NCBI RefSeq assembly: GCF_000499385.1
Contig: NW_013652802.1
Location: 1-64,000, forward strand
Length of the DNA stretch: 64,000 nucleotides
Direction: 5' to 3'
Origin: Eimeria necatrix
Taxonomy: Eukaryota; Apicomplexa; Conoidasida; Eucoccidiorida; Eimeriidae
Shown here: positions 2,985-62,506 of the stretch, piece by piece
How the letters are laid out: every line of letters starts with the position of its first letter
Position numbering within the stretch: position 1 is the first letter of the stretch
The notes under the pieces: generated by a model
The model's database searches: none
What the model was told of the DNA's origin: nothing
Seen by the model: only the letters and a program-made list of their open reading frames with translations
Position numbers and translations under genes: made by a program

Positions 2985-3262
2985 CGTCGCTAGCTAGCTG
3001 GCTGCCAGCTAGCTAGCGACGCAGCTAGCCAGCCAGCTAGCTGCTGCCTACTTACTCCGCTAGCTAGCTAGCTACCTAGCTAGCTAGTAAGTAGGACGGC
3101 TAGCTAGCTAGCAAGCTGGCTAGCTAGCTAGCAAGCTGGCTAGCTAGCTAGCTAGCAAGCTGGCTAGCTAGATAGGTAGCCACCTAGCTTGCTAGGAAGC
3201 TAGCTCGCTTGCTAGGAAGCTAGCCAGCTAGCTAGCTGGCTAGCTACCTAGCTAGCTAAAAG
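2985..3262. repeat. GCTA tetranucleotide microsatellite, interrupted
   Basis: About 275 bases dominated by GCTAGCTA, broken by GCTGGCTA, AAGCTGGC and CTACCTAG variants. GCTAGC is self-complementary, so the whole tract is palindromic at short scale. No coding reading is plausible. Confidence 0.95.
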
Positions 3263-3299
3263 AGGATCCGTTTGGGACCGCCGCCGCCGGACTCTGCAG

Positions 3300-3425
3300 G
3301 GACTGCTGCTAGCTGCTGCTTGCTGCTGCTAGCTGCTGCCAGCTGCCGCTAGCTGCTGCTTGCTGCTGCTTGCTGCTGCTTGCTGCTGCTTGCTGCTGCT
3401 TGCTGCTGCTAGCTGCTGCTAGTCC
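3300..3425. repeat. CTG/TGC tract with GCTTGCTGCT hexamer variants
   Basis: Repeated CTGCTTGCTG and CTGCTAGCTG units follow the GCTA microsatellite, probably arising from mixing of the CTG and GCTA repeat types. No start codon or splice context supports translation. Confidence 0.85.
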
Positions 3426-25930: not shown

Positions 25931-26873
25931 TGTATCCAAGAACAAGAGGCGCAGCTGCAAGTCTCAATTCATGGGCCAACTTGTGACGCTGTTGGCGTTT
26001 CAGCAGCTGTTTCAACACTACCAGCATTTCAGCAGGCAAGCAAGAGGCTCCGGCGGGACCCCATCTGCCCTAAGTGGCCACATTCCATTGAGCTGCTTAA
26101 GCCTGCCCCTTCTTCTGAACTTCTGGATCTAGAGGAAGTAGCCCCAGTAACTGTGTCAATGCTGACTTTGAGCGGAGAGCGTATCCACTTCAGACCGTCG
26201 GCTGTACGCCCTACGCGCAATGAGCGCCTATGAGTGCTCCGTCCAACATTCGATGTTTCAACAAAACTTACAGCATAACATTTAAGTGAAAGCCGACGCG
26301 CTTTAACCTGTTTTCCCGCCGTACCGCCTGGAGGGCCCGTAAACTTGCGGGGCCCCACGGAGGCCCCCCAGGTCACAGCAATAGAGGGGACCAACCTCCA
26401 TTCTGGAGACGCGAGGTGGTGTAGAAAGGCCAATTATTATGAAATGAGATATATTTTTGCAGAAAACAAGTGGTCTCCGAAAACTCCACCAAGTCGAAGA
26501 CAGCTCTCCGCGTGTGGCTACTCCATCTCTTGAGGCTGGAGATTTCTCTCTAACGCGATGTCCCGTTCTCAATTACATACAAAAGCTGTATGAAGAGCTC
26601 AAATAACAACATTTTACAGACCGGCGCCACGAACTGTCTCCAGAAAACATGTTTTGTACAGGGGTCCCCCCTGGCCTCGGAGCTGGCCCGACCGCAAGCT
26701 TGACACACGAAAGCCGGAAGGCGGTGGCATGCATAACATACCATAAGTGTCCTCTGTAGTGCCAGGTTCTTCAGCATGATGGTGCGTGCATCCGCACACA
26801 CATCTTACGCTGGAATGTGAAGAATGTTCTTCATACCTCCAAACCACAGGGCATTATCTTGCTCCGTGAAATC
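25931..26873. other. divergent intergenic stretch between MED4 candidate and GPATCH1-like gene
   Basis: The flanking genes are transcribed away from each other, so promoters of both should lie here. No core promoter motif could be named. Short frames on both strands look non-coding. Confidence 0.5.
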
Positions 26874-29800
26874 ATGGCAGGTACGGCTCTATACCCGTCG
26901 AGTACGGGTGAGCAGACTGCGTTGACGTCGGAATGGGCATTCATGGGAACGCCGATATGCCCGCTGTCTCTTGATCAGCTAGAGGAACAGCTCTGCAGGG
27001 AACAGCCCTGGCTGAGACATGATGGTCACACAAGTTTGCCTCCCCGTCTGCTTCTCGAAGCCGCCGCTCGAGCAGCAAAAACAGAAGCTCGCCGCGCCAG
27101 CGGAGCACTTGCGAAGGCGGAAAGGGCTGCAAGAAATGCTCGGGCGGCAGCAGAGGCACAACACAGGCGCGCCGCAGATGCAGAAGAAGCGGCCCGGATA
27201 GGTTTGGGCGCAAAATCCCTTATGGAAGCTGCAGCAGCGGCTCATGAAGCGGCAGAGAGGGAGGCTGTGGCGGCCGAAGCAGCGAAAGAATTGGCACAGC
27301 GCTATCACGAGGCAGCGCTTTCTAAAAGCCTGGCGGCTCGGTATTTTTGGGACGGACAAATGAATGACGAAGACGAGCTGCAAAGGCAGCTGCAACAGGC
27401 AGCCTCAAAGAGCGCTGGCCGCTCGCCTATTGGTGGTTGGGTTCCTGGCACTTCGAATACAGCGCACTTCCAAGATGATAGCTCTGAAGGTGAGCCAGCG
27501 CCACTCCCCTTCTCTGCCTACACCATTCATGGATCTCGCCTCTCAAGCGCCATGTGGGCTCCCCACAGCATTTTGGGTTGCGATTATTCACAGCTGGGTT
27601 GTTCCGCACTGGTTTCCTGTCTCTCCCACACCATTGTCCTCGTGGCGGTGTATGCTCAGCTTTTTTTTGTAACTACACTTTGCTGTACATTCGGTTGCCC
27701 GCCCAACTCAGGCTTTACATGCTCCGATTTCACTTCCTCTCGTTCGTCGCGCGCAGCCCATAGAGTCTCTCGACCTGAGGACTTCATGGACCAGGAAGAT
27801 ATGGAGGTACGGACAGAATTGTTCATGCCTGCAAGCTTTCCACGCCGACTTTTCGAGGGGCTTTGTACTTTTTTTTGTCACACTTGTCTACAATAGGCGC
27901 TGCAGCAGCCGTGCGTAGTGACTCAAGTTTGAAGCATAGGCGCATATCCCAGCATTATCGTCTGTGACGGTTCTGAAGCTGAGATTACGACGTTGCAGTG
28001 GACGCTGCCGAGCGCACTGCAGCCGCCATCCACGCTATGCCCTGCTGTTCTGGCGCCTGCAGCAAGCGGCCCGCGGAGCGCGCAAAGCTTGGCATTCTGG
28101 GCAGCTGCAACACCGGCACAACGAGTGGGAGAGCGGAGCAGAAGCAGCGTCATCTTCAAAGGGGGAAAGAGAACACGTACTGCGGTGGTCGCGGGTTGAG
28201 TCGCGGAGAGAGGGCCTGCCTGTCTTCGTAGGCACTGGTAGGCCAGAAGTGGCTAGCGGCGTATAGACGTGGTTGCGAAACTTGGAACAGCAAGGCATAG
28301 CTAGACGAATAGAAGAGCAGAAAAAGACACGCAAGCGGAGGTGAAGCGAAAGCATGGCCTGATCTCACTGTCAATAGCGTGACTTCTACAGAATCCGTCG
28401 TTCTAGGGACCTTCGATGCCTCCGACAAAATGTCATTAGAAGCTGAGTTTCCTTTCAATTCTGCAGGTCACGCTGAATTTCCGTTTCAATCCCAGTGGCG
28501 CCTGCAGTCAATGCGTCGCTACCAGTGGGCGCGATCTCTAGTGAAAAGCCTTGGAGCAGACGGCAGGGATCGCCGTATTCCCGCATGCGATCTGGAAAAA
28601 GCACAACCAGAAACGAAGAGCATGGGCCCTCAGCTGCCTCCCCACGTTGAGGCAGTCAGACAAATGATGCGGCCGAAAGGTACTGAAGAGCAAGCCTCGG
28701 AGAGAAAGAATGGAGCTCAAGATGCTAGCGGCAGTGAAAAGGATATGGTGGGCGAAGAGATGTGTGTGCCTTCACAGGAGAAGCCAGCAGAAGCCTTACC
28801 TCAGTTGCTTGCTGCTGAGGCCACCGCGGCGGCTGCAGAAGGGGAGGAGTGGGGGTGGGCTGCGGCACAGAGCCTTCTGCGGCTGCAGCCCTTGGGGCCT
28901 CTCAGGCTTGGACTAGGGTTTCAGCAAAAAGAAGCTGACCGTGCCCAGCTAGTCAGTCAGCTTTCAAAAGCCGCTACCAACGTACACGCAGAGTATGGCA
29001 ACAGCAGCAGTATTAGCAGCAGCAGAGCACAGGTAGGGGAACAGCGGATGAAGGGGTCTGGGGAAGTGCTTGAGGTGAATGTGCGCGAGCCTCTCACTGG
29101 TTTGCGCAATTATGCCCTTGATGACGACGAGGGAGGCGAAGAAGTCTACAGCAGCACTGCCCCGAATAGTAGCTTGTATGATTTTGGGGGTGCCACTGAG
29201 TCAAGGACGCGTCCTCTGGCTGCTGATCTTGCTTGTCGGGCAAGCAAAACGGCAAGCCTGAAAGAGGAAGAGCGGCTGCAGCTGGCTAGGGTGGTGGAGG
29301 CGGAAGGCATAGTGGTTGTTTCAGATGACGGACAGAGCCAAGCACAAGACAGTGGAGAGGAAAGGACGGAGGACATCATAGCACCTCATGACCTCGTTGA
29401 CAACAGAGAATGGGCATTTGAGACCTTTTGCGAGTGAGCGTTCTCATACCTTTTCCGCACCGGTGTACTCCGCTTTGTTCCTATTTGCAGCTGTGACAGA
29501 CGGGTGACTGTCGCATTTCAAGTAAGGTTTCAGAGACACACAAGGGTATGAGATTTATAGGCAGACATCTCTGTCGGGTAGCTGTTGATTTTCCTGCGAT
29601 TGCGTACAGTTTGGCTCTGCCGCCAGTGCCTGTGGGCTTTAACGGAATGCACACGTCTGAGGAAACCAAGTTCCTCTCGGATAGTGTTGAGCTGTTGGCG
29701 GACGAAGAAGAAAGGCGTGAAGTAATGCAGTCACTAGGCAGCACTCATCAAGAAGCAAAGGAGAAAAGGGGCCGCGGCTTCTCCAGCAGTAGCTTTGGTG

Positions 29801-41911: not shown

Positions 41912-44900
41912 ATGACGAAATCCCCGCGGGCGCCGCTGAAGCGCCCGGAACGCCGCCAACGACTCTTTACCTTGGCACTGTTTGCCGGGGGTATTCTTGG
42001 CAGCACAGTAGGAAGCTGTGCAGCTTCTTTTGAGGGCACTAGCCCCGTCGATCCGACGAGACTTTTGCCGAGGCGCCTAGCACCTCAAGAATGCAGGACA
42101 TATGTCTATACCGAGATCGATCATGAGCCCACGGAAATGTCCGACAGGGGTAGCTGCCCCACAGGTGGTGGAAAACGCGCGTTTCTGCTAGATACTTCAC
42201 CTGAGGGGGCAGGAGCCCCTGCTCTATTGGAGGTTTCTCCCGTTCAGTCCCAGCAGTATTCCTGCCGCGCGAGTCGTCCATGCAGCCTTGTGGTGGCGGG
42301 TTTCGGTCTTCAAGCGGAAGACAGCATAGCTGTGCTGAAAGGCATTGAAGACTGCCCTCCAACTAGCCTTCGCAATGCTCAAATTATCACTAGCACTCGT
42401 CACATTACCAGCTCCTCAGCAGCGACTTTCAACTTTCACATCCGGCCACAAAAGGCGAAGACAGAGCTGCCAGTATTTGACTTGGGGCCTATTCAAGGCA
42501 GTGCTTTTACCGTTTGCTATGCTCCATATCTTGCGACTCGGGGTGAAGCCCCTTCAGCGAAAGATTATCATTACCGTGCAGGCACTGTCAGTAAGTCCAC
42601 CACTGAGTTTTTACCTTCGAATGCTTCCGATGTGTCAGACACTTCTGATACTGAAATGAGCAGCATACTGTAGCAACATGAGAAGCGGCATGCAACTATG
42701 AAGCTATGTCTTTGTGTGCGCTTTGTAGCCATCCGCGATGAAATGCTCAATTGCGACTTTGAGGAGGGAATGTGCGGGCTGATGTCTTTCGTGATTGATC
42801 CCCGCATGAGTTTGGAGTGGCGCCGTCATTCCGGAGCAACGGAAACATCTGGAACTGGCCCATCTGCGGACCACACAATAGGCCGAAGACCAGGAAAGAG
42901 AGGGCACTACCTTTACATGGATTCGCCTGGTTACATGCTTGGGGAGAGTGCATCGCTTCTTGCTCCTCCTCAGATCTACCCTAAGGGTCTCTACTGCACC
43001 AGAATGTGGTACCATATGTACGGAGAAGACGTTAACTCACTGAGAGTGTACATGCGCACACTTGAAGGGGACGCAGAAGCCCTCGGGGATTGGGGCAAGC
43101 CTTATCTCTTGAGGGTGGGTGACCACGGAGACGACTGGCTAGAAGCTGGGTTTGAGTTCAGCTCCGACGGCCACACCGCTCAACAGCTGGTCATTGAGGC
43201 ACTTGCTGGGTTTAGCGAGAAGGGAGACATTGCAATTGATGACTTGCGGATCGTGTCAGGAAAATGCCCAGAGCAAATTTCACGAGACGTGACGCAACAA
43301 GATTATATTTGCGGCGAGGTTCGCCTGCTTACAGGTAACTATGCTGAAGACAAGCAATGGTTTGTTGAAGGTGCAGTATCTTGCGCCGGTAAAGGGTACT
43401 CACTAAGCAGCATGCAAGGGCGTTGGGTGCCCTGTTGTGTGCCCCGTTACGGCAGCTACACGGTGGTTCTAAGGGATTCATATGGCGACGGGTGGAACAG
43501 GTCAAGATTGGAATTTCGTTTCTTTGGAGATCTCATAACTTTTGGGGAAGACTTCAATGGAACGGAAAAGAAGTATAAGCTTAATATTGGTCTTGTGCAG
43601 ATTCAGAGAGTCGAGGGCTCTGAGGATCGCATCGGTATCCAGCTTCAGGTTGCACAACCTAGAACTTACGTCTGGTGTGGAGCAGCACAGTCTGGGACTC
43701 CTCCCCCAACTGTAGAGATCTTGAAGCGCTATGGTATTCGGTCTCAAAACCCAACAAGCCATGCAGGTGAAGTGCTGCGTATGGAAATAGCCAACAAACC
43801 GGGCAGCCGCCGGGTTGTTATGCCAAACACAACCTACAACGTCTACTGCTACGCTGAAGCGTCTACGGCGAACATTCCGGAGCCAGACGGTGGTCATGGA
43901 ACACACCGTGAGCGCATGGATGATGCGCAAGTCGCTGCTTCCCGAATGGCAGTCACAACTGACAGCACTCCTCCCAATCTCTCTATCCAAGGCACAGAAG
44001 CACATTTAAATGAGGTCATCGTTCGATTGACATCTGATGAGCCGTCCACAGTATGGTGTTTAGCAAGAGACGAGAAAAAAGAAGCTGCTGCTGGAGGGGA
44101 ACCACCCTCCGTAGAGGCTTTGAAGAAAGGGAATAAGATACAGATTTTGCACGGCGAAGAAGGCTCGCCTCAGGCTCTTTCCGTCACGGGGCTCACCCCA
44201 GACAACCATTACACAGTGTACTGCTTTGCACAAGATGCAGCACTGCCAAAGGGGAATGGCATCAGTCTTTCCCAAGTCAAGGAATTGTCGTTCTCTGTGA
44301 AGACAAAAAGTAAGGTGCCAGAGCTCTCCATCTTGTCGTACAAGGCTTTCCAGAAGGGATTTAGAGTGACTGTCCAGGCGGACACTCCGGCAAAAGTTTG
44401 GTGCGGTGCAGCCATGGCTGGCAGCGCCTTCCCAAGCCGTGAAGATGTTCGACGCGTAGGAGCCACTACTGAAATTGAAGATGCTGACCAGAAGACAGAG
44501 CTGGAGATTCGCGGTGTTCCCCCAAACACTCGCTACACAATCTACTGCTTCGCTTCGTCTCGTGGTGGAAGCGCCGAAATGACGGACGCTCAGATGTGGG
44601 CTAAAGCACTGGAAGTGACCTCATTCGGCCGATTCTGTGACATGCCTGTAGAGCCCGCAGATCTGGAAGTTGCTGATAAGCCCACGCTATTCGACCCATT
44701 GACTTCAACAGAAGAGTTCTTGGTTCGTGAATTTATGGGAAGGCAACGCAACCTTAACATTGAAGGAGTGTATCGTATTAACCTCTTCATAGACAAAGAA
44801 AAGATAATCGAGCATCTTGACAAAGGCGGTCCAGCTCCTAGAAGGTATGCGCGCGTTCGTGTTGGAACCTGCAAGGATCGGGAGGGAGCTTACAGGCAGT

Positions 44901-47253
44901 ACAAAGTGGGCCCGCTAGACGTGCGCAGCGCCGATCAGATGACACTGGAGCCCGTAGGTGCTGTTGTGCCGACCGACTGTGGCGGTTATAATCCACAAGG
45001 TGTCTTTGGACGGCGTCTGCTGGCAGTAGATGAAGAAGAGGAGCTAGCAGAGATCCTACAGGAGTCATTCGGTTTTGGATTCGGCAAATCACGCTGCCAG
45101 TTTGAACATAAAAAATCCCATGAAGAGCATCATGAAGGCTGTCTTGAATTTGGGCCAATGCTCTACGAGGAAGGTGATGACAAGAAGATAATCACTATTT
45201 GGGCAGGCCTCCGGACGCCCACTGGTGATAAGGTTCCTTTCTACTTCCTGCTTCCCGCGCCAGAAGGTGTAGATGCGCAGGTTCTCCAGAGGCCTGATGA
45301 CAGGGAAGAGCTGACATTTAAGCTCGACAAAGTAAAAGGCTATTGGTATGATGGTCAACAGTTCTCAACACTCCGCGAGTTTGTGGAAGCGTACAAAACG
45401 GGAAAAAACTTCAAAAAGGTGACCCCCGAGATACTCAAAGAGCGACGAAAGATGGAAAAGCAGGAGCAAGAACACAAAATTCAAAAAGAAAGAGCACTGG
45501 CCCTTCGCCGCCTTGCTCCTGCATGGCTGGCTCCCAATCCGGAGGGTCGCGTGGGGTTGGAGTACCGTGCAGCTCCCGAGCACATCGAGCCACAAGGAAG
45601 GCGCTACACTATCCGCCAGTCTCCTGGTCAGGAGTCTTACACTATTAACTATGCAGGATGGGAGTTCGTTATAAATATGGATCGCGACACAGCTCTTCGT
45701 CTGTGGGACATCAAATTCCAGGGTCAACGTGTTGTCTTCGAGATGGGTATGATGGAAGCGTTGGCACATTATTCTGTGGCTGAGCGCAACTGGTACTTCA
45801 TCGACTCTTGGTATGGTGGCTTGGGGTCCGCATCTCGGCGTCTGCATCCTGGTATTGAGTGTGCAAAAACAGGGCAGCTCTTGTTTGATGGTGGATCTCT
45901 CTGCATTTTTGAGAAGGATTTTGCCCGCCCTCTTAGGGCCCACTGGAAGAGTGGTACCCTCCGTGATGGAGCACCCCATATGGCTCTTGTCCTGCGACAT
46001 ATGATTACCGTCAGTAACTACGACTACATCACCGACTACTACTTCCATGTCAGTGGCTGGTTTGAGGCCTCAGTGTCCTTCACTGGAGAGCTATATGCTG
46101 GTGTAGAGGTGCCATGGTACTCAGCCCGTCAAAGGCGTCACGGAACACAAGTGAGTGGCTCAATGAGAATGGGCGCCCTTCACGGCCATCTCGCCGTTTG
46201 GAAAGTAGACTTTGATCTTACCCCAGACTACCGTAGTAATTCGGTCGTCTTCAGTGAAATCGTGCACGATACCGCGAGGCCAGGCGCCATTAAGCTTGAC
46301 CAGTGGATTGGGGAGAAAGAGCTTGATGGCTACATTGCGTACAACAGCACGAGGCCCATCCACTACACCATCGTCAATGAAGACCACAATGTCTACGGAA
46401 ATGTCGGTGGTATGACTGTACTGCCGTACCCAACTGTTGCGGTAAGCCTCTTGCACATGCACTTTGTGCCAATTGTGATCCTGGCTCATACTGTACGAAC
46501 ATTTTCCAGCCGACTCCTGCGCACGCTGGCTGCAGTTCGTCTTTTAAAATGATTTGAATGGCGAAAAGCTCTGGTCAGTGGTGTTTTCGCAGATCCCAAA
46601 TCCCCAGTTCGAGTTGTATACGGGGCCGTGTGCTTGGGCCAAGTACCGTGTGGCGACGACTGTCAGGCATCCAGACGAATCGGAAGCTACTCTTCCTAGA
46701 GACAACAAATACGCTCTCAAACCGGCAGTGTCTCTTGACAGATACCTGAGAGTAAGCAGAGTAGGCGCTAGAGGAAAAAGTGGATAGCCCTCGAACCGTT
46801 TCACCCCTGGACAAAGAATGCAAATGCGACGCTGGCGCACAAGGCCGTCGCAAGTCTTTTTCAGCTAGCGCTGTTTCCAGTGTGTCTTCTTGTAGTTGCT
46901 AGGCTAGTGTTAGATGTTAGAATGTCACTAAAGTGCTTTCCTGTCTCCAAATTCCCTCAAGAACGGTCCAGTGTTTTTGTGTGATTTGACGCCAGAACAA
47001 CGAGACTATTCGGAAGGCAGACTTGGTTACTTGGATTTCTAGCGCTGTCTGGCATATTCCTGTCGTCGAAGACATGCCCTTGACTCTAGCTCAAGGGAAC
47101 ACACTGGGTTGGCTAGTTAAGCCTCACAACTATTATATGGAGGACATGAGCATGGATCTCCACAACGCCATCGGTGGTGCAGTTCAAGACCCTGGAACAT
47201 GCGCACTCATTCGTCAAGAAATGCCAAAATATGGAGACACCCCACAAAATTAA
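41912..47253 (+). CDS. secreted MAM domain-copper amine oxidase fusion
   Basis: Four exons (41912-42590, 42729-46441, 46593-46751, 46996-47253) join in phase to 1602 residues. A basic n-region and LFTLALFAGGILGSTVGSC give a signal peptide. Order: Cys-containing N-terminal region; MAM domain ~233-406 (NCDFEEGMCG, TGPSADHT); a DSYGDGWN module ~478; three related Cys modules at ~540, 666 and 782 (VWCGAA/VWCLAR...YTVYCFA); copper amine oxidase N2/N3 domains from ~865 (FDPLTSTEEFLV, YKVGPL); catalytic domain from ~1195. Key residues are present: base Asp1252 (YFIDSW), topaquinone precursor Tyr1324 in SNYDY, copper His1378/His1380 (LHGHL) and third His1537 (WHIPVVEDMP). The enzyme should oxidise primary amines to aldehydes, releasing ammonia and hydrogen peroxide, outside the cytosol. 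Substrate and stage are unknown. Confidence 0.92.
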
Positions 47254-48568: not shown

Positions 48569-51500
48569 TCAGTGTGAGGTGCACACTCGTGTTCCTCCAG
48601 CTGATTGTATTTCTCCAAGTAACCGTTGGAGTCTGATAGCAAGAAGGCGAATCCGCTCTGCCACAGAGTTCGTCGAATTTCCGCTGTCAATCGTCTGTGA
48701 GCTGTCTGCAAGGGGAATTCTTCCACGTCTTCGCGCTTCTTCATACAAAAGGCGTACAACAGTGGGAGCCAGTGCTTCTGCAGCGGCCAGCAGCTTTTCA
48801 GCCGTGGCTTCGCTGTCGCTCTGTGTTCGTACTTGCCCTTGAATACCGTTGGAAAAACTCGTTATCTGCACCATCAAGGATGATGGGAAGTGTGCTTGCA
48901 CTAGAACGGCATCCCGGCGCTCCAGGAGAATTTCTTCGTGGCACTCCTCTCCATACATGGCCTTCTTCTGCCAAAGCTCTGTCGTGTCGCACTGAGCCGC
49001 AAGCTCGCTACATAGAGCAGAGGCATCGACCTTGCACTGGCCAGCAGTTCCGGACTCCGTATGAGCACTGGGAGGCTTTCCTGGAGTGAGCAGACCACTG
49101 CTCTGTTGAAAAGGCTGAGAAATTAGTGAGGAGAGGTAATATAAGTTTGGAGCGAAATTCAGACAATAAAACCCTCGAGCTCCTGAAAAAGCAGCAGGGA
49201 TCAGCAGTAGCGGCTCTAGACACTGGCTTGCCGCTGAGGTCATGCCACCTGCAGCACCTGCCACAAGCTGAGGCAGCTGCCTTTTTCCCGAGAAGCATGA
49301 CAAGGAGCAGCAACAACACTGTTGACTTGCAGTTCCGCGAGCAGTGGAGCACAGCCATAGGTGGTGGAGTAACAGAAGATGCTTGATGCCATGCTGTGAC
49401 GTGTACATAAACCCTGTTTCTGCCACTGGCGTAAAGAGAGAATCCTCGCGTTCCGCCACGTCATAGCAGGCAGATGGGAAGGCAGCGAATTCCCCACAAA
49501 GTGAAAGCTCGGATACTCCAGAATTCCGCAGCAAAACATACGCGCAGTCGGACTGAGCGGCAACTCCCACGGGGCAGTGTGCAACATGACCACTGCCGCG
49601 GAATCCACGGCCTGCAGTCAAAAACTTTTCCGCGCCTGTAACGTTTGGGAGAACGAATGCAGCAGAGTGTGGGGCCACCATGTGCGCAGCAAGGGTCACT
49701 AAGCCAAGAAAACAGCGCACCGCAGACACTGTGACGCCGTCGGAAGCCTTACTGCTGCTGCTGCTGCAGGCAAACGCCTCCAGGAATTCGAGTTGGTCTT
49801 TTATCGGCAGCCAAGAGCAAGCGTGGGAGAAAGCCGCCACCTCAGCTGCCAGATGGTCTTCACCTTTGACAGGTTTAATGTTTGCCTTTTCCGCTCCTGG
49901 AAGTTGTCTGCAAGGTGGCACTCCGGCACCTGCTGCATTATCTTGTTCTACGGGAAGGACAAACCTGTTTTCGCCGAATTTGTCGCCCTCATTCAGCAAC
50001 ATTTTGCGTTTTTCATGGAGAATTTCCAAGGGTGCAGCGCCGGAAATCACCAGATGCACCACGACATGTGCAGGAAGAAGACACAATTGCCTCCTTAACT
50101 GCCTGAATTCTTCTTCCTTCTGAAGCTCGAAATGCTGACGACGCCGACTACGCAACTCAGCTGTTGGCAGGGAGGCAACATCTTCTCCGTTAAGTGAATC
50201 TTGCACTAGTTGGCAATCCTTGCGAAGCTCCAAAAATGCAACAAGAGCTTCTGCTGCGGTACCCCAAACAGCGAATGGAACAGCTCGGGCTGCTGCAGCT
50301 GCTGCAACCAGTGTTGCTGACTGTGACTCGGCCAGCCCTTCTGCATAGTATCTTTGTGGCGTTGCTGCAGATGAAGCTGCTGGCCGCTGGCTAGAATTCA
50401 TGACAGCTGTATTAGTTAAGAGCGGTATGACCCACAGTAGCATGAGCTGCTGGAGCTCTCTAAAGAAACACAGCTTATACGAAACAGACGGAAATACGTA
50501 CAAGGGGGTCTCGCTTTCAACAAGAGAAAAACGCCTTCGCTTCTGCTGTCGTTGCTGCTGCTGCAGCTCCCACCGCTTGCGCTGCTGCGTTTCTCTACCA
50601 CTGCAGCACACGCTCCGGCGAGCGCTCTGGAAAATCCGGCGAAGAGCATTCAGGGCGCTGCACCATAGAAAAGGCTCCCGCGAGGGCGGCATTAGCCCCC
50701 GAAGCAGGACAGATCCTACCAACGATGTAACATCCCTGGGGCTCAGTGACCCAGCCGCAGCTGGCAACAGCGCAAAGAAGTAGCACGTCATAGCAGAGGT
50801 GAATCGGCGTTGGCTGTGGCAGTGCTGCTGCTGCTGCTGACACTGTGCAGAAGCAGCTGCGACGCCGAAGCCTGCATAGGCGAATCGTATAAACAGGGCA
50901 GCGAGCTGGGGTAGACGGTCGCAGTGTCTGCAGCAAAACCTCAGGACACCCAGTTGAAGAGAAGAGCACGACTGCAGCTGCCGCAGCAGTTGATGAAATC
51001 TGGAGTGCGACTCCGTCTTTGCATTATCAGGGCTAGCACCAGCTGTCTGTTGCTGCCGCAAACCGCCACCCTTAGAGGCAGCTAGCTCGGAAAGAGAGGC
51101 AACGGTGGCTTCCAACGAGCGGGAAAAAAGCAGAGCTAGCCTTCTACTCAGCTGTAGTTCCGAAAAGGCTGGAATTCCACGATACGACAGAGCCTCTAGC
51201 AAGCATGTACAGTGAGGCACGGGCAGCCCACTAGCCCCGCTAGCTTCCCTTTGGCATCCCCTGCTTCCGAGCAGACCAATCCAGCCGAAAGCCTCTCCAA
51301 CATCATTCGCTGCTGCCTCTTCGTGTCTCTGAAGTTCAGAAAGTTCCTGGAAAGCTGAGAACTCCACATTTGCAGCAGCGCTCTTCGGTGCAGGAGTGCC
51401 GCCAACAGTGTCTGGCAAGCACGCTCCACTAGAGGAAATCCCCTCAGGGAACAAGAGCTCCTGCCCCTCCCGTATCTGCAACAAGTGTTGAAGAGCTAGA

Positions 51501-54500
51501 CGTGTCAAGCTCTTCTCAGGTAAGCTAGCCAAGGAGCCCTCTGCTGTGTGGCTCGTGAGCTGCATGTATAGCAGACTCAGCACCATACTCCCCGCTAAGT
51601 CGGGAAATCTGTTCTTCTGCCCTCTTGCTGGCTGTGATGCGTGAGTGTTTCCGAATGAGACAACAGAAGCGTTCGCAGAATTTCCAGAGAGCCAATTGAT
51701 CAGACGATCCAACGCAGCACCGAACGCATCCTGCTGTTTCCCCTGCTGGTGGCGCATTTGCTGCTGCCACTCCTGAGGATGCTGATTGGTGGTGTTGCCC
51801 TGTGACATGTCCGGGCCGCACAACGCAAAGGAAGGCCAAGTAAGGCTCGATGCTCCAGCACTTCTCTGTGCTGCTGCAGCATGAGTAGGCGGCTGCAACA
51901 CAAATGGGGCGCCTATAAGGGCTGCGGCAGTAAAGGCCCTGGAGAGCTGGGAGACAGCCCCCACTGCTGGTGTTGCCAGTGCCCGCAGCACAACATCTTC
52001 GAAATGCAAGAGTAAGCGCTGCAGCTCTGTAACCTGCTGCTGAATGCGTCCTGATCGTTTCCGCCGTGGCCGCTGCAGCAGCAGCAATAGTGGAAGCAAG
52101 GATTGGGTCAAGTGAGCCAGACCAGCAAACGCCAGAGTTGAAGGGTCCGGCAGCGCTTGCCCCAGAAACTCCTCAAGCCTCTGCATAAAGTACAGGGCTT
52201 CATCTAGAGGCAAAACTCCGGCCTCTACAACGATTGGTAGCAAGCTCCCTAGGGCAAGCAGGGCGTTCCACTGCGAGCTTTGGGGCCCTGCACATGAAAG
52301 GGCTACCCTCTCTAAGACCTTGTAAAGCTCAAGCAATTGCGCGTAGAAATATGTCGGGTCTGGAGTCTGCAGGTGAGTGACCCGAGAGACTTCCGCTATT
52401 GCAACAGCCAGCGCTGCCGTCACACCAACATACTTGCCGTCTGCTGAAGAAGCTGGTGTTGCTGATTCGCAGCTCGATGACAGCTCTGTAAAGATACCCA
52501 ATGCAGCCATGAGAGCCCTTAAACAAGAGCCCAGAAGTACAGGGTCCCCCGAATGTAGCTGTGCATGGGCCGCCAAGAAGATGCATCGAGCAGCACAACG
52601 CAAATCGTTGCCAGCCTCTGTTCCAGTCCCGCAAAGGCACTGCTGAATTTCAGTGGCGCTTGGTTGAGCGCCAGTCTGACCGCGAAAACCCTGCAACAAA
52701 GTGGAAAATACCTCAGCTCCGTCCTCCCCCTCTGGAAACTCCGTCCACAGCTCGGATACATCTGCTGAGGTTGCGTGGACGGGTGCTAAAGCAAGGAGCA
52801 AACAGCTGGAGAGCCTGAGCACCAAAGAAAAGCAATTAGCGAGAGACCTTTGTGGTGAAAGAAAAACGGATTGCTGTGCACGCCGTCACATGATAACTAC
52901 GGCGGAGCACTCTGCTACCAGCGCTGCTGGCTTGAACGGATGCAACACAAGCCGCACCTCGAGAACTGACAAGGCTAGTTTGAGATGGCCATGACGCATG
53001 CACTTCGATAGCACACTGCTGTCCTTGTATACGGAATATCCGTACACACTACGGCCACAGCTGCCTTTAATATAATAACACGCTTCACTCTGCCCCGTGC
53101 AAAGCTGCCACAAAATTCAGGAACTAGCAGGAAGGCAACCTTCAGGCGCGATAGCAAGGACAGAAACGCGTTAACCGCCAAACAGGCGTCGTTCAGCGGT
53201 CTGTCCAGCACACGAAGATGGTTCAAACTTGCATGCAAGCTCACCAGGGTGGCGGCGGTGCAGCAGCAGAGGAGTTGAGCCGCTGGGAGAAAAAGCTGAA
53301 AATTGCGGGAATAAGAGCGGGCTGCTGGGCTGTGAGGGCACTAAGGAGGGAAGCAAGCACGGAAAATTCTGAGAGCCTCAGGCCGAACCCTGCACAATGA
53401 TTGGTGCAGAGCGGGCCCGCTGCAGGGGTGCCCTTAGGTTGCGTGACTCTAGAGTCCATAGCCTGCTGCTCTTCAACCGCTGCTCGTGGCAGCAGCAGCT
53501 CCAACTCCTGCAGCAAGTGATGCCCCAGCTGCAGCAGCTCCCCATCAGCCGCAAGAGCAGCGGGCAGCATCGCCGCGAACCTGGCGGCAAGGAAACAGCC
53601 GCATGCAAAGAAATCGGCAGGTTGGCATGTGCGCCGCCATCCTGTTAATGAAAAACGCTTTACGTGCTGCTCGACTGTATCGCCGTGGCTTTCAGGGTGA
53701 TTTCACCACGAAAACGCCCAAATGAAGTGTTACAATGGATTCTCGATAGACTTTAGGACGTCAAAAGAGGAAGCACACGAAGCGCGCTTAAAGGAAAGCG
53801 GGAGGACAAGACGAAGGAGAATGTAAAGTACAATGTGCAACCTTGGAAGAAAACTAGAGCCTCGTAGGACCACGCTAGAATATCCACAAAACATCAGCAC
53901 CCCAAACATATCAGGCTCCCCAGAGAAGCTAAATGAAAAGACGCCTACCTCTGGACGAAAAATTCGCAAACACGAGGAAGCAAACACAACAACAACGGTT
54001 CCGTCGTCATGAGGTGCCTTGCGATGTCCCTGATTTCGAAATGTGTGTAAGCCCTCAGCTCTTTCAGATCTGCACGAATGGGGGAATTCGTAGTCGACAA
54101 GAATTAAGTAGGCAAAATTTGTTTGGAGACTGGAGCAAAGCCAAGACACATACACTGCCCAGGACTCATTTTGTCTGCAGCTGTACCATAAACAGGATGC
54201 TGCAGTCATAGAATAAGTGCGGCCGTGTCAGCTGCATGCACCTCTTCCTTCACTTGTCTTGCAACCCGAGCCTCCTGAAGGTCTTGGACTGGAAAACAGT
54301 AGGAGCCGCAGGAGAGCACGCTCGCTGTGAGCATATCCTGAAGTGTCAGATGCATCAACAGAAGCACGTCGCGACAACAGGGTCCCCAGTTTGTGCTGCT
54401 GCTGCTGCCTTAGAAGTTCTCCCGGTGTCTGGTTCCCCACACCCCCCCGAGCAATGCGTTCTTTGCTCATTGCAGCAGCCAGGAGAGAAGCAGCGCCACG

Positions 54501-57500
54501 TATTTCCAGCTGACGCAGCGGCAGATGTAGCACGACCCCCCCTAAGCCTTCGCTACAGGCAAACCGCACTGACGCTCCTTCGCCCGCGGGCGTCCTAAGG
54601 ATTCCGCCTGAAGCTGCTTCGGCAGATGCAACGTAAAGAGGCCCCAATATGAGAGATGCCGCCTGTAATGCCACAGACCGCGCAAATGGAGAGCCTGCCT
54701 CGGCCACTTCTTCCAACAAGAGCAGCTGCTGCTGCAATTGGCTTTCAAGCTCTTGGGGCAGCCCACTTTCTGTCGGTTTGTGTTGCTGCAGTTGATGCAC
54801 CCGTTCATCCTCATGCTGCTGGTGCTGCTCTATCTGTTCAGCAAGGTCCTGGGAAAGGGCAAATAAAACCAGCACGAAGCCTTCAAGTGCTGCGCGGGGA
54901 GCTTGTAGAGTGTTAAATAGAAATTGGCACTTTCGCCGAAGGACTCGCATGATTTTCGGGGTTTCAAGGAAGCGCCGCATGCAAAGGCGACCTAAGGTGC
55001 ATAGAGTCACGCCGCACGCCCGGCCGAGCAGCCACTGCTGCTGCTGCTGAGACGCGCCCCGCTGCTGTAGCTGCGAAGGGCAAACTCCATAAGAGGCAAC
55101 CAGCTGTTCCATTGCAGGGAGAAATTGCAGCAACGCCCGCGGGCATACGGCTTCCAGCTGCTGCAGACAAAACGCCAGTAGCAGTTGCTGCAGCGGTGTG
55201 GCATCCTGAGGTAGGATAAAAGGCACGGAGACTGCAGCGTCTGTATCGTGCACTACAACTGCTTCTCCACCTGCTTTACCCGGGGACACCACCGGCTGCT
55301 GGTGCTCTCTGGTGTCTCCCTGGCTCTGCTCCGCTTCTGCTGCAGGCGCTGCAGCAGTGAGCTTCGAATACGGCAGTTCGTCGAAGGCCGCAAGACGCGA
55401 AAGGCTCCGCATCAAGAGAAACCACATTCCATTTGTTGACAGCAAACGGTGAGACGGGACTACTTCCATGCAGCTCGCCAACTCCCCCAGGGGATCAGTG
55501 CTACACCAGCAACACAAGCTACAGCAGCAGCAGCGGATGCACGGGACCACAGCTGCTGCATTATTTAGAGCCTGTCGGCTACTAAAGCAGCAAATTTTGT
55601 CATGCTTGCCTGAAGGCCCCAAAATGTTCGTGGATTTGCACAGCCACTGATCAGAACTCAGCGGTCGCTGTCCCTGCATCGTTCCTTTGTGGATCTTCTG
55701 CCCCTGTTGCTTCTGTACGGGCAGCAAGTCAAATAGTGCTCTGTAAACCGGAAGGACTGCCGTTTTGTGGAGACCGAGAGAGGCAAGCGCCTGTAGAGAC
55801 AGAGCAAACGTTTTGCTGAGGCTTTGCAGTAGCTGGCGCCGTTCGGCTGTTACAGACGGCAGCTCAGCCGCGCTGGGAGCTAACAGGGCTGAACCAGCAG
55901 CCGCCAGAGCCTCGGCAGCAAATTCTGCATGTCCATCAAAAAGGATGAATTCGTCTGGCAGTAGCGGGCTTGGTCGCGGCTGCTGCTCCCGAGGCCAATG
56001 TTTCCCCTGAATTTTCCATCGTAGCAGGGTCCGCACTATAGGGGATGTGGGCAGTCTCAACGCAGCAAAGTGCAGTGCAGGCAGAAGCTGCAGAGCAGCT
56101 GCAGGTGCTGCAGCCACTAGTGCCCCGATTGCGGCGAAAGCCTGCTGTCGGTCCGCCAAGGACTCTGCGAGAAAGCAGCAAGCGAGCACGTAGGTGTAGG
56201 GCCCTTGCTGCAGCAAAGCACTTGGTAAAGATAGTAGAAATGGTGTGCTGTGGATGTCTTCGCTGTAATCCCTGTCAAGCATCATGTGCAGCAGCAACTG
56301 CCGCTGGCCGGCTGTTGCTCCAGCTTGACTGCCAGCAGCAGCTTGAGCCACCTCAAGCTGCAGCTTGTTCTTCAGGTGCGGCCGAGTTGCTGCAGCAAAG
56401 ACTTCTGCGCCCAGCAGCTGCTCTGCTGCGCCCCTGTCGAGAACGCGAAAAGACCACAGCGCAAGTGAGAGAGGCATAGCAGCCGCTGCATCACTGGATA
56501 GCGGCACTGCGCCTGCTAGGCCAAAAAGCTCCGTCACATCGAATGACAGCCCACAGGCCCTACTGCAACTGCAGTGCTCTTCTTCACCCGCAGGCGTTCC
56601 TGTAGCAGCGACTGCATCTGCAGCAGCGGCTGCTGCTGCGCAAGACAGCAGCGCACGTAGCCGGGTGCAGGTCTGTTGCAGGGCGTCGGTCAGCTGTTGT
56701 CTGAGGAGAGCCCCTCCAGCTCCACCACCGAGTTGCTGCTGTGTAACCAGTGGCACCAGCAGCTGTACGAGTGGTGAGAAGCAGCAGATGCATCGTAAGG
56801 CCTCTGCAGTGCAGAGGCAAGACGCGCAGCATTCACTGGTCCTTCTAGCGATGCAGCTCTCGCTGCTATCGTCAGGTGCACGTACGAACTGCGGTTGCAG
56901 CTGCAACATACGGTGAGTGGCCTGCAGCAGCAAAGAGAGCTCTCCCGAGTTTGCTTCGTTTGCTGCGGTGCTCCACAGCAGCCAGCCAACCAACGCACAG
57001 GTGACTCGCCAGAGTCCCAATGAAAGGCAGGTTCTACTGTAGTTGCTGCTGTTGCTGTCACCGCTGCTGCCGCCCGAAGAAAACGCAGCAGCCGCAGAGA
57101 TCGGAGTCCTTAAGGGAGAGAAGAGGTTGAGGCAGCGCAGCAGCTGCCGCAGCAGGGCCGTCACGTTTTGCAGCTGCTCTCGAGCCGTGTAGAGACCGCA
57201 AACACACTCCCACAGCAGGCGATCTGCACGTGCCTGCTGCTGCTGCTGCAGCATCAACCACTCCCCGGTGCCACTGACCTTGGTCTCACTCTGGAATGCA
57301 GCAATCATTGTAGAAGACATCTCAGCGCTCCTCAAGGCAGCAGATACACAACAGGAAAACTCCTCAGTGTCTCTCACTCTCGTCAGTGCAGACAAGCTCA
57401 GGTGCAGCAGTCTGTCGCTCACCATGCTCTGGTTCTGTTGTCCGGGCTGGTGCTGCTGCTGCTGTGCATGCTGCTGTTTTGCAGCCTCCTGCATCTCTGC

Positions 57501-58553
57501 TTTCCCCACAACCTCTACACAGCGCAGAAGACGATTAACTGCAAGGGGAAGCAGGGAGCAAGTTGTGAGGCTGCTGCTGCTGCAGCTGAGGAGCAGCTGC
57601 AGGGATGTCAGTAAAGTTGGCTCGAGCAGAGTTGTGAACGTCATAAAAGGGACGCTTTGCAGCGTCCTGCCACTGTTGCTGCTGCTCTCATCGCCGTTGC
57701 CGCTACTTCTTTCTGCTGCTTCTTCCAGGACGCAAGACACAGCCTCCACAGCGGCGAGGCACACACGAGGACAGAAGTGGCTTATCCGGATGAGTGTATC
57801 ACGGAGAACGGCTGCTGCTTGCTGTAATCGCACCAGTAGTTGCTGCTGGTATTGCTGGTGCGATGCAGGCACCAGCTTATCTTGAAGCGCCAGCTTTAGG
57901 AATCGCTGCACAAGCAAAAGCTGCATTTGCGGTGGTAGCAGTTCCTCTCTGCTGGCTTTGTTTCTGTCTCCGTTGTTCCTGTTACTGATAGTAAGCGCCG
58001 TTCGGTTGGTCTCTGCAGCAGCAAGCCTCGCATGCAGTAAATCAATCAACTGCTGAGGTCCTATGGCCCCATCAGCAATAAGATCTGTGAGGCAGATAAG
58101 AGCCTCACTGCGGCAGGCACTCCGTAGCTGCTCCTCTGCCGCGGCAGCCGCTGCAGCAGCAGCGGGCTGAACAGCGGCTGCTGCTGCAGGTGGCTGGAGA
58201 AATGCCGCACAGGGTAATTGGTGCTCCCTATTGAAAGCGACAGCCATAGCGGCAGCATTCTCTCCCTCAGATTCAGCCACCGAGAGGGTCCCGTGCTCGA
58301 GAGCGAGCAGTAGCAGCTCTAGGGCGACCTGGCGCTCTTTGTGAAGATGGGTGAATTGCAGCAGCAGTGATTTGAGTTTGTGTAGACCACTGCACCGCAC
58401 ATGAGCACTGGGAGCCTCCAGGGTCTTCACCGCCTTCTTCGCCTGCAGTGCGAAGGGACCATGACGCGCTGCTGCAAGGAGAGCCGCAGTGCGGCACGAG
58501 AGGGAGCTGCTGCCCCAGGAGGCCCCTCCAGCGCCCTGAGTGCCGTGCGGCAT
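48569..58553 (-). CDS. giant helical-repeat (HEAT-like) protein, ~2980 residues
   Basis: Function not recognised. Three exons join in phase: 58553-54254 (start MPHGTQGAGG; donor CAA|GTGAAG), 53641-53245 (acceptor TTAACAG; WRRTCQPADFF...; donor CCCTG|GTGAGC) and 52814-48569 (acceptor GTGCTCAG). The phases 1 and 2 fit exactly, so the two long frames are one gene and not two neighbours. The protein is Leu/Ala/Gln-rich with continuous amphipathic helices (e.g. KSLLLQFTHLHKERQVALEL, LTDLIADGAIGPQQLIDLLH), as in alpha-solenoids. It has many short Gln, Ala, Ser and Leu homopolymer runs inserted in loops, a habit of Eimeria proteins. Focadhesin-type solenoids have similar size and helix pattern, but I see no diagnostic motif. 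No signal peptide at the chosen start. Confidence 0.75.
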
Positions 58554-59920
58554 TCTAATGTGGGGCAGTGGTACTGCGAGCTGCTGCTGCTCGTCCCCTT
58601 GCTCGCCAGAATGGCACGGGCAGGTTAGATAACCACTGTGCGCCCAGATACGGGTGCGTGGAACGGCACCTAAGTAGCATGACGCCGCAGGTTTTACAGC
58701 GCTACAGCATGACAAGTGCTACTGCTGCAGTGTACCACATAACCAGCCAGGAGAGGACCCGATGAGGCATGCTGCAGCCGGTCAACGGACGAGGATTCAG
58801 GGGAAGCTCACTACAGCTTTTACCGTACGCAGGGATTCGCACGTTCTGGTGGAAAGGCGGAAGCGCAGAAGAACAAATAAAAGCATGAATACTCGCAAAC
58901 AAGACTTGGACACCCTGGGACTATAACTGAAGAGCGGGGCCTCACGGCCGACACATGCTAACGTCTCTTCATTTGTGAACTTGGGGATGTTTTACAATGG
59001 CCAGCAGGGAGTTGATGAGAACAAACTGCTAAAATTGACTGATAATATAGCAATATTAAATACTGATTGAGTAAATAGTGCCACAAGGCACAGTAATATC
59101 CTTCGAAACACACAAGTTATCAAGGACATGCTGTGGGCCTCTGTCTTCAAGCGATTTGTAGCTGTATGCTTCTCTGCCAGATGTCCTGTGGCCTCTCTAA
59201 TGCAGTCTATCCTGTTCTTACAATCAAGCCTTCTAGAGATCCTATTTGAAAGGGATGGTCCTACTTGGAAGGGATGGTGCTAGGGGCTGCCTCTAACGTA
59301 CATGCTTAGTCAAACTGTCCAATGTGCGTGACTTTGCGTGTACCGACTGCGTGGCTGTATGCCCAGCTTGGGGAGCAACAGATAAGCTAAATGTGAATTC
59401 TGCTTGGCTGCACGGTACAGACATGGAAGACCACTGCGGAGGCTTTGAGTGCCCCGCCACAGTGCGAAAGCAACGTGGCGGAACAACGCTGCAACTGGGA
59501 GAATAAAATCCTCTGCCGCATATAAAGGTACAATATATGTGTCTGGAATGTTGGGACTGGTGTACTACCGCTTATTCCTTCCTTGAAAACGCGATGAATA
59601 AATGGTAAGGATAAGTGAGTGACAGAAATGGAAAAATTTCGATAAGGCCGCAACGAAAGGCAAAGACGCTCTTTGAGCCTCGTTGGACGGCTGGAGTAGC
59701 CTCTACTGAGACTCTCCTTGCTCCTAGATCCCTCTAAATCTGCATGGGCGTCCCTAATAGGACAACCCTGGCGCATGATCTACATGCTGGACGTATTGTA
59801 TCCCGCGAAGCAGATGCAGACAAATCTAACAAACTAAAGAGACAAAAGTCGCGTGGGAGGAGAGGCAGTAGGGTTGTTAGTATTTCCTCTCCCGTTGCCC
59901 CCGTCTCCTTCAATTGGCCC
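58554..59920. other. intergenic stretch, nothing assigned
   Basis: Upstream region of the helical-repeat gene and 3' region of the LEA-like gene. A short repeat of AAGGGATGGT occurs near 59249-59275. No supported coding piece. Confidence 0.5.
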
Positions 59921-62506
59921 CTACGCGTCTTGGGGGATAAGAGGGCGCTGGATGTCCGACCTCGAGCTCTCAGACAGCTGCTGCCTTTCAGCTGCGCGGC
60001 TTCTTTCTCTGTGGTGGGCCTCCCAGCGTCGGAGCACGAATGCGACGAAAAACAAAGCACAAAGAAGCACAACAGCTCCAATTCCCAAGAGCGTGAGGTT
60101 CGTGTTTGGGGCGCTGTTGAGCTCGGGCGTATCAGCTGCAGCCTCTGTGCCTTTATCCCGTTGTGAGGCATCCTCTACTTTATCATCCGTATCTCTTTGC
60201 CCGGTGATGGCGTTTCGCCACTTTCGCCATTCCCAGCCCGTGATTAAAGAGGGAGGGCGTGGACTGTCTTCCGCTTCGGTGACTTGCTGCGTTTTTGTGT
60301 TTCCAAAAAGAGACTCTAATAAACCATTACTGGGTGGTACTGTTGTAGTGGTAGTCGTTGTGTCTCCCCGTGAAAAAAACCAAGATAGACCGGAAGATTC
60401 AATCTTATTTTGAAGATCCTGAGGAGGCTCCTCTTTGTTCTGCATGCGCTTCATAAAAGAGCCCCACGAATATTGTGCGGATTTGCGATTGATTTCAGGG
60501 TTGGTGGAAGTAGTGGTAGTAGTCGTAGTTGTTGTTGTGGTCGTGGTGGTTGAGCGGAACTGCTCTGCAGGAGGGGTGCCAGCCACAACCTTACCTGAGC
60601 TGTCAAGACAGCCAGGGAGAGTTGTATCAAGCCACTTGGACTTGCAGGAAGCGTGGCAGGACCGTTTGTTGCTGTAGTCGTAGGAAGAGAGACCATGAGG
60701 CAGTTCGTCATGCGTTTCTGCAGCATCTGTCTCTTTGGGCGCCTCCCCGTTGCATTGTCGGATGCAATCTCTGAAAGGAGGAATGGGATCACAGTCCAGT
60801 GGCGGTCCCTCCTTGTACACTGCAGGAAGGAAGTCTTTAGCCTCAGTTTCGGGCTCCTCTGCTCCTTGGAGCTCAGCATTTTCTAGCTCAGCCTCAGCTT
60901 TCGGCAGAACGCTGCTGCCGAGCCACGCGGCACTGTCAGTTGGCCTCAGGTTAGCTTTAGCTTCTGAGGGAGGGAAAGTGGGAAAAGACGTATCTCTTCC
61001 TTCTTTCGTGCTATCCGTTGCGGCTGTCTCGGTGCTGGCCGCCTCTTTGAGGGCAGTCTCTGTCATTTTTTCCGCGGGAGCGCCGAAGCCCAGGAGCCTC
61101 TTAGTCGCGTCGAGGATAGAATTGTTGTTGCTTTTCTCCGTTGCGCAGTCACACGGAGCCTCTTGTGCTGTTTCAGCATCGGAAGAGCAATCACAGTTTC
61201 GCATTGGTGATGCTTCTTGTGTCTCCGTCTGGGGATTTTGCTCTTTGGAGTTTGCCCAAGGCAAGAGAGCGCCAAGCAAAGGTTTAGATGCGTTGGTGCT
61301 CAATATTTCGATCACTGCGTCGGCTTTATTGACTCCGCGCTGTGCACCGGAGGAGACCATGTCTGCTGTGCCTTGCAATGTTTCCGCCGCGGTCGAAGCA
61401 CTGCTAGCTGCTTCTTCGAGACGCTCAGCAGCATTCTTCGCTGCGCTCGAGGCGTTTTCTGCTGCCTCTTTGACTTTGTCTGACCCTGTATGCAGCATCC
61501 CGCTAATGGCATCTCCCCAGGAGGCCAGAGCAGTTTTGGCTGCCTCGGCAGCGCTCTGCACTGTCTTGACTGCCTCTCCAGCTCTATGGGATGTTTCACG
61601 AGCAACTTTAATAGCGGATTCCGCAGCTTCCTCTGACCGCGATTGCACTTCATGTCCTAAAACTTCGAGAGTGTGTTTAGCCTCTCGGGCTGCTGTGTTG
61701 GCTTTCTCTGCGGCGTCAACTGCTGCCCGACGCGCTTTTTCAGCCGCCACAGCGGCCTTTGCAGCAGTCCTGGAAGCAGATTGAAGCGTCTCGTTTGAGT
61801 TGCTTTGCACCTCCTCACGGACACGGTCGGCCCAGGCAAGAACGGCAGACTTGGCGTCTTGGGCAGCAGATGACAGATCCCTAGCTGCTTCACCGGCGGC
61901 AGACGTGGCCTTCCTCGCTGCCTCATACGCTGCATCTGCTGCAACTGGGGCATTTTGTTGCAGAAGCGCACCCAGGGCGTAAAGGCCCTTCTTGGCTTCC
62001 CGTGCTGCTCCTGATGCTGCCTCTGCTGCGTCGTGGGTGACCTGTCGCGCTGCCTCTGCAGCTTGATGTGAGGTTTCCCCATCCCACCAGCCCCACGCTG
62101 TTTTGCGTGCCTCCTGTACTCCGGAAGTAGCCTCCTCGATACCCTGGTGGGAGGCCTCCGCCGCTTGTCCTGCTACGTCGTTTGTCACGCCCGTGGCGGA
62201 GGTTGCGGCCTGCCGCAGTACACGAGCCACGCCTGTAGATGAAAAAAGATCGGAGCTCGCCTCAGTAGAGTTAAGGCTTTCTGGAGTGTCACGCGATGAA
62301 TGACCGCCGAAGAAGCCGCCGCCGAACAAAGCGGCAGCGGCGACATCCCCACCGGCCGAAGGTCTACTAGATGGAGGAGCTTCTTCCCGGCGAAGGAAGA
62401 AGTCTGTGAAAGAAAAAGAGTCGGCTTGCAGAGGGCAGCTTTGTAGAGCCAGCAAAATGCCGAATAGAACGGCAGCGCCGCCGCGCCAGTTGAGTCTGGC
62501 TGTCAT
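59921..62506 (-). CDS. type I membrane protein with LEA-like Ala-rich repeats
   Basis: Single exon, 861 residues, ATG at 62506. Signal peptide (AVLFGILLALQSCPLQADS), then a short Phe/Gly-rich part (ALFGGGFFGG). Residues ~95-420 form about five degenerate ~50-residue helical repeats rich in AAxxAxxA and ending in AK(x)nL...W/L, like group 3 LEA or apolipoprotein helices. Next come a CDCSS/CDCAT segment and a Cys cluster (LDCDPIPPFRDCIRQCNG, then SCHASCKSKW), two Thr homopolymers (nt ~60505-60550 and ~60340-60365) suited to O-glycosylation, one transmembrane span (LTLLGIGAVVLLCALFFVAFVL) and a ~36-residue basic cytosolic tail. Known coccidian LEA proteins are soluble oocyst proteins, so a surface or wall-facing membrane-anchored version would be different. 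No enzymatic motif is seen. It is the only intronless long gene here. Confidence 0.85.
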   Translation of the reverse strand: MTARLNWRGGAAVLFGILLALQSCPLQADSFSFTDFFLRREEAPPSSRPSAGGDVAAAALFGGGFFGGHSSRDTPESLNSTEASSDLFSSTGVARVLRQAATSATGVTNDVAGQAAEASHQGIEEATSGVQEARKTAWGWWDGETSHQAAEAARQVTHDAAEAASGAAREAKKGLYALGALLQQNAPVAADAAYEAARKATSAAGEAARDLSSAAQDAKSAVLAWADRVREEVQSNSNETLQSASRTAAKAAVAAEKARRAAVDAAEKANTAAREAKHTLEVLGHEVQSRSEEAAESAIKVARETSHRAGEAVKTVQSAAEAAKTALASWGDAISGMLHTGSDKVKEAAENASSAAKNAAERLEEAASSASTAAETLQGTADMVSSGAQRGVNKADAVIEILSTNASKPLLGALLPWANSKEQNPQTETQEASPMRNCDCSSDAETAQEAPCDCATEKSNNNSILDATKRLLGFGAPAEKMTETALKEAASTETAATDSTKEGRDTSFPTFPPSEAKANLRPTDSAAWLGSSVLPKAEAELENAELQGAEEPETEAKDFLPAVYKEGPPLDCDPIPPFRDCIRQCNGEAPKETDAAETHDELPHGLSSYDYSNKRSCHASCKSKWLDTTLPGCLDSSGKVVAGTPPAEQFRSTTTTTTTTTTTTTTSTNPEINRKSAQYSWGSFMKRMQNKEEPPQDLQNKIESSGLSWFFSRGDTTTTTTTVPPSNGLLESLFGNTKTQQVTEAEDSPRPPSLITGWEWRKWRNAITGQRDTDDKVEDASQRDKGTEAAADTPELNSAPNTNLTLLGIGAVVLLCALFFVAFVLRRWEAHHRERSRAAERQQLSESSRSDIQRPLIPQDA

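Follow-up and report, generated by a model that had tools for sequence, protein, structure and literature searches.

The 64,000-nucleotide stretch of Eimeria necatrix DNA analysed in this study (the window; positions 1 to 64,000 of contig NW_013652802.1) carries a gene, AO2, whose product is a predicted enzyme: a secreted topaquinone copper amine oxidase built onto a scaffold of MAM and fibronectin-III-like domains. The gene is the orthologue of EtAO2 of Eimeria tenella and TgAO2 of Toxoplasma gondii, and the protein is an already described one. This explanation as a whole, including a role in the oocyst wall, is probably correct. The wide apicomplexan spread of the MAM-oxidase fusion and a conserved site in the linker ahead of the enzyme are modest additions to a known protein.

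The domains and catalytic residues are distributed over the gene as follows.

41912-47253, + strand: AO2 gene; four exons, three GT-AG introns and a single terminal stop, giving a 1602-residue protein in the splice model
41912..42590, + strand: exon 1 of the splice model; start codon, signal-peptide-like stretch and Cys-containing N-terminal region (residues 1-226)
42591..42728, + strand: intron 1 (GT...AG, 138 bases), with an in-frame stop inside
42729..46441, + strand: exon 2; one open frame with the MAM domain, fibronectin-III-like domains, N2/N3-like parts and the larger share of the catalytic domain
42752..43270, + strand: MAM domain, by Pfam and structure match; the sole MAM match found in the 44.0-Mb genome
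43661..44629, + strand: three repeated fibronectin-III-like domains, limits approximate
44657..45502, + strand: copper amine oxidase N2/N3-like region, limits approximate
45578..46429, + strand: first part of the catalytic domain (PF01179 positions 2-298)
45803..45805, + strand: Asp1252, expected catalytic base, aligned with the Asp of human diamine oxidase
46019..46021, + strand: Tyr1324, topaquinone precursor, in N1323-Y1324-D1325-Y1326
46181..46189, + strand: His1378-Gly-His1380, two copper ligands by alignment
46442..46592, + strand: intron 2 (GT...AG, 151 bases)
46593..46751, + strand: exon 3 of the splice model
46752..46995, + strand: intron 3 (GT...AG, 244 bases)
46996..47253, + strand: exon 4; last part of the catalytic domain, with the stop codon
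47053..47055, + strand: His1537, third copper ligand by alignment, in exon 4

The predicted mass of the chain is 178.9 kDa. The signal-peptide-like start contains a hydrophobic stretch at residues 18-36, and the Pfam scan of the N-terminal region encoded by exon 1 returned no family. In the exon-2 frame, the MAM domain matches PF00629 with an E value of 4.4e-27 and, by structure match, is predicted to take the jelly-roll fold. Matches to fn3 or Pur_ac_phosph_N, below the cut-off, were obtained in three of the six orthologues scanned. Exon 2 comprises 1237 open codons that hold the MAM domain, the N-Y-D-Y motif and the H-x-H pair, while the longest open run in 200 base shuffles was 248. The MAM domain and the copper amine oxidase therefore belong to one chain, being both within exon 2 with no stop between them. 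The original prediction had placed a signal peptide, a MAM domain and an amine oxidase in a single apicomplexan protein, an arrangement borne out by the splice model, the Pfam matches and the orthologues with both domains. Most of the enzyme lies with the MAM domain in a single uninterrupted exon, and the orthologues are fused too; unpublished RNA-seq cited in PMC4345034 is reported there to give TgAO2 as a single transcript. The genome search (contig 533 of a 44.0-Mb, 1148-contig assembly carries the gene) found a single MAM match and a single amine oxidase gene.

The exon-2 part of the enzyme matches Cu_amine_oxid (PF01179) with an E value of 1e-40 and 140.4 bits, against a curated cut-off of 27, and a second piece of the family lies in exon 4. 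The predicted positions of Asp1252, Tyr1324, His1378, His1380 and His1537 were exact to the residue; the roles given to D1252, H1378, H1380 and H1537 are those generally known for this family. Compared by sequence with solved structures, the spliced protein matches those of Aspergillus nidulans amine oxidase (3pgb; 7.1e-40), human diamine oxidase (3hi7; 6.8e-39) and Pichia lysyl oxidase (1n9e) in its catalytic domain, and the catalytic residues fall inside motifs aligned with solved amine oxidases; in 3pgb and 3hi7, the topaquinone motif and the copper-ligand regions align. The three matched chains (731-797 residues) consist of the amine oxidase alone, unlike the 1602 residues of the present protein. 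Copper amine oxidases account for 50/50 of the listed Foldseek matches to the predicted oxidase model (best E value, 1.7e-24), in agreement with the expected β-sandwich, although the model, which leaves out exons 3-4 and has a mean predicted local distance difference test score (pLDDT) of 68.6, gives template modelling (TM) scores of only 0.41-0.47 and root-mean-square deviations of 12-15. An N2/N3-like region in front of the catalytic domain was recognised in the model and by Foldseek; Pfam gave a sub-threshold DUF1965 match there.

The window protein was aligned with 29 of 31 fused homologues (30 rows), leaving out P0094, a mite record, and P0103, with 26% query coverage. Asp1252 and N-Y-D-Y are kept in all 30 apicomplexan rows, and the three histidines in 29, 29 and 28; the misses are explained by a skipped stretch in P0005, an apparent intron read-through in P0006 and a truncated protein in P0012. 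Conservation in the residue blocks covering 1231-1380 (mean 0.73-0.86) is among the highest in the whole chain.

EtAO2 (ETH_00028385) and TgAO2 (TGME49_286778/286782), which are 59.7% identical, were described by Walker et al. 2015 (PMC4345034) as proteins with a MAM domain and a copper amine oxidase. Compared by published description, EtAO2, from another eimeriid species, has an expected size of 183 kDa versus 178.9 kDa here. Cyclospora cayetanensis LOC34622548 (P0001) also has 1602 residues and is 87.5% identical without gaps, and the Eimeria maxima protein, with which the window protein groups in the catalytic-region tree (100/99), is 84.3% identical over the aligned residues. According to PMC4345034, the AO2 transcript is upregulated in gametocytes, the protein is located in macrogametes of E. 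tenella and T. gondii, and TgAO2 staining is also seen on early oocysts; the crosslinking of tyrosine-rich wall proteins by AO2 is a proposal of that paper. AO2 has since been used as a macrogamete marker (PMC6701743) and listed among wall-formation genes (PMC6365665). An amiloride-sensitive amine oxidase is reported among the most abundant oocyst-wall proteins of E. tenella in PMC10707475, whose main text does not give the number ETH_00028385, and a protein of this name appears in E. necatrix proteome work (PMC10729351). A proteomic table of unsporulated E. tenella oocysts lists ETH_00028385 with the values 51, 39.5 and 183.04, taken here as peptides, percent coverage and kDa (PMC12784848).

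The fusion is widespread. The first homologue search returned 81 proteins, 20 of them with both domains, and a second one, for which the Gregarina catalytic domain was the seed, gave 33; both domains were present in 31 of these, the earlier 20 among them. The fused homologues that carry names are from Coccidia, six Cryptosporidium species, Gregarina niphandrodes and Cardiosporidium (two proteins); many others are metagenome or transcriptome sequences. Because the 31 fused homologues span Coccidia, Cryptosporidium, Gregarina and Cardiosporidium, the sequences suggest that the fusion predates the coccidian wall, and a single old fusion, inherited vertically, would be the simplest reading. No Plasmodium or piroplasm protein is named among the matches listed, from searches that were not aimed at these groups. 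In the tree of the 30 apicomplexan rows, eimeriids and Neospora group together (99/100), as do the Cryptosporidium rows (99/100), while Cardiosporidium is placed weakly with gregarine-type rows (81/65), contrary to its taxonomic place; 4/31 inner branches are open and three long rows were flagged. A text search of the literature for amine oxidase with gregarine retrieved no paper, and a Cryptosporidium paper lists amine oxidases among wall-protein modifiers (PMC6877471). P0094, filed under the house dust mite Dermatophagoides pteronyssinus, has the same fusion and is 65% identical to the Gregarina protein over the query region; most probably, gregarine sequence has contaminated the mite assembly. 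P0014, one of the two fused proteins of Cardiosporidium cionae, also matches EF-hands on the N-terminal side of its MAM domain, which points to either a third kind of domain or merged gene models.

In the proposed mechanism, AO2 would be made in the female gamete and then secreted, and the MAM and fibronectin-III-like scaffold would hold the enzyme in the forming oocyst wall. There its substrates would be amines, either lysines of wall proteins or free polyamines; their deamination would yield aldehydes, ammonia and peroxide, and these products would harden the wall. We infer the activity, the substrate and the crosslinking chemistry of AO2. The original prediction had likewise suggested oocyst-wall crosslinking; the published macrogamete and early-oocyst location supports this in part, and wall hardening is a plausible reading, not a proven one. 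Several observations weigh against it. Within the open-access literature searched, as far as its accessible text goes, there was no enzyme assay, peroxide release, dityrosine formation or gene removal for AO2, whereas a 2020 review states as fact that AO2 catalyses dityrosine crosslinks (PMC7768002). According to PMC4345034, the EtAO2 serum gave no oocyst staining in E. tenella sections and detected a band of 120 kDa versus the expected 183 kDa, for which its authors advised caution. The fusion is shared by gregarines, Cryptosporidium and Cardiosporidium and is therefore not specific to the coccidian tyrosine-rich wall, and the oxidase model superposes poorly overall. Finally, the haem peroxidase families PF00141, PF03098 and PF01328 and tyrosinase (PF00264) had no match in this genome, which leaves the step from peroxide to dityrosine with no known catalyst here; this negative is weak, as only PF00141 matched control genomes (5/14) and introns can hide genes. 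The peroxide may feed an unrecognised peroxidase, or the aldehyde product may crosslink directly. According to PMC10729351, published work describes dityrosine in Eimeria as well as a peroxidase activity of the wall-forming bodies.

Oocyst walls help to make coccidian and Cryptosporidium infections hard to control. The amine oxidase class has known inhibitors. AO2 was found as one gene in this genome, and the fusion spans several apicomplexan groups, not Coccidia alone.

A different chemistry, possible but unlikely in our estimate, is that AO2 resembles a lysyl oxidase and converts lysines of wall proteins to aldehydes that crosslink directly, with dityrosine made by something else. The top structure matches include the Pichia lysyl oxidases 1n9e, 1rky and 1w7c, the first two of which match by sequence too; the lack of a detected haem peroxidase, with its weak controls, and the presence of the fusion outside Coccidia point the same way. 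However, the sequence matches are stronger for human diamine oxidase and the Aspergillus enzyme, so that no single substrate class stands out, and the peroxidase activity and dityrosine noted above count against this chemistry.

The second alternative concerns how the protein is processed: AO2 may be a pro-protein cut at a conserved R-x-L between the scaffold and the catalytic domain, after which the enzyme would be free or non-covalently held. This, too, is a tentative proposal that we judge improbable on balance. The sites concerned are the following.

45506..45520, + strand: R-R-L-A-P, residues 1153-1157; candidate cleavage site, within the linker ahead of the catalytic domain
42071..42085, + strand: R-R-L-A-P, residues 54-58, downstream of the signal-peptide-like stretch
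45011..45019, + strand: R-R-L, residues 988-990, in F-G-R-R-L; F-G-R-R in 30/30 apicomplexan rows

Toxoplasma ASP5 is reported to cut its motif RRLxx after the Leu, at internal sites too, as in MYR1 (PMC4764566). AO2 shares with these TEXEL substrates the RRL motif (RRLAP at 54 and 1153, RRLLA at 988, RRLHP at 1263), its internal position and a signal-peptide-like start; it differs in that its cleavage is predicted from the motif and in that the motif varies outside Coccidia. In the linker, R1153 and L1155 are present in 30/30 rows; between them, 20 rows have Arg, and 23 rows have Pro at position 1157. Over the twelve positions upstream of R1153, no residue is common to more than 12 rows. The region around R1153 follows a long helix in the model and has a pLDDT of about 33, and the R-x-L site is not present in the four vertebrate amine oxidase rows. 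The pattern R[RKSQ]Lx[PYF] occurs in 30/30 linkers, far above shuffled linkers (mean 0.8, maximum 5, in 2000 shuffles per linker), and RRL in 20 linkers (shuffle mean 3.1, maximum 10, in 2000 shuffles). These are aligned-column counts; a regular-expression count of strict RRLxP (15/30) was set aside, as 12 rows were without the anchor and, among the 18 that had it, 15 passed loosely. The pattern was, however, picked after viewing the alignment, the rows are related by descent, and plain R-x-L is common in shuffled linkers (mean 17.2, maximum 27/30).

A cut after L1155 is predicted to give an N-terminal chain of 124.3 kDa (from residue 37) or 122.1 kDa (from residue 57), close to the published 120-kDa EtAO2 band (PMC4345034), and a catalytic chain of 50.7 kDa. 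Against the cut, residues 1167-1185 just downstream are strongly conserved, so that the R and L may be structural, and a further RRL, which lies within the catalytic domain at 1263, persists in many rows as RRL or an RK type with no evident cleavage reason. The linker motif is RKL in Cryptosporidium (seven rows), RSL in Cardiosporidium (two) and RQL in one row, whereas TgASP5 is reported to accept no change at P1-P3 in the tested peptides (PMC4764566). Aspartyl protease exons are present in this genome, and eimepsin 2, a gametocyte-specific E. tenella aspartic protease, is reported to match T. gondii aspartic protease 7 best, not 5 (PMC3770453). The sera were raised to EtAO2 residues 44-1179 and TgAO2 residues 176-532, in the numbering of their own gene models (PMC4345034), and both would mainly report the N-terminal part of AO2 because the catalytic Pfam match starts at 1177 in the window numbering. 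If the cut is real, what the published antisera followed may be the scaffold and not the enzyme; the EtAO2 size discrepancy would then be explained, and the localisation would have to be repeated with a catalytic-domain reagent. A shade less likely again is the fuller account in which AO2 goes back to the apicomplexan ancestor as a wall enzyme, its MAM-scaffolded pro-protein being cut at R-x-L, perhaps by an ASP5/plasmepsin V-like protease; the antisera would then have tracked the scaffold, and the 51-kDa enzyme chain would be still to be localised.

Hardly credible is a third alternative, in which the scaffold serves as a structural protein of the wall and the enzyme is vestigial: it would fit the lack of reported AO2 activity in the accessible open-access literature and the abundance of an amine oxidase of this name in wall preparations (PMC10707475), but Asp1252 and N-Y-D-Y are kept from gregarines to Eimeria within one of the best conserved parts of the protein.

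Two further motifs were observed. The F-G-R-R that includes the two Arg of residues 988-990 is followed by a length-variable stretch, and K-G-R-R occupies the aligned place in 2/4 vertebrate rows, so that the motif may have a structural role and not mark a cut. P0102, the Cryptosporidium meleagridis orthologue, has a PEXEL-like R-S-L-Q-E at residues 67-71 of its N-terminal region, comparable to the RRLAP at 54 here.

Elsewhere in the window, long open reading frames lie near the gene on the - strand at 48569-52825 (1418 aa), 54228-58715 (1495 aa) and 59921-62506 (861 aa), with no Pfam match at E <= 0.01. The reading frame at 26817-27893 (+) has a DUF1604 match (7e-08). Positions 1-485 and 2989-3422 contain a contig-start array of AGC triplets, telomere-like AAACCCT heptamers and other short tandem arrays; the AGC array and AAACCCT repeats resemble the repeat-rich segments of Eimeria.

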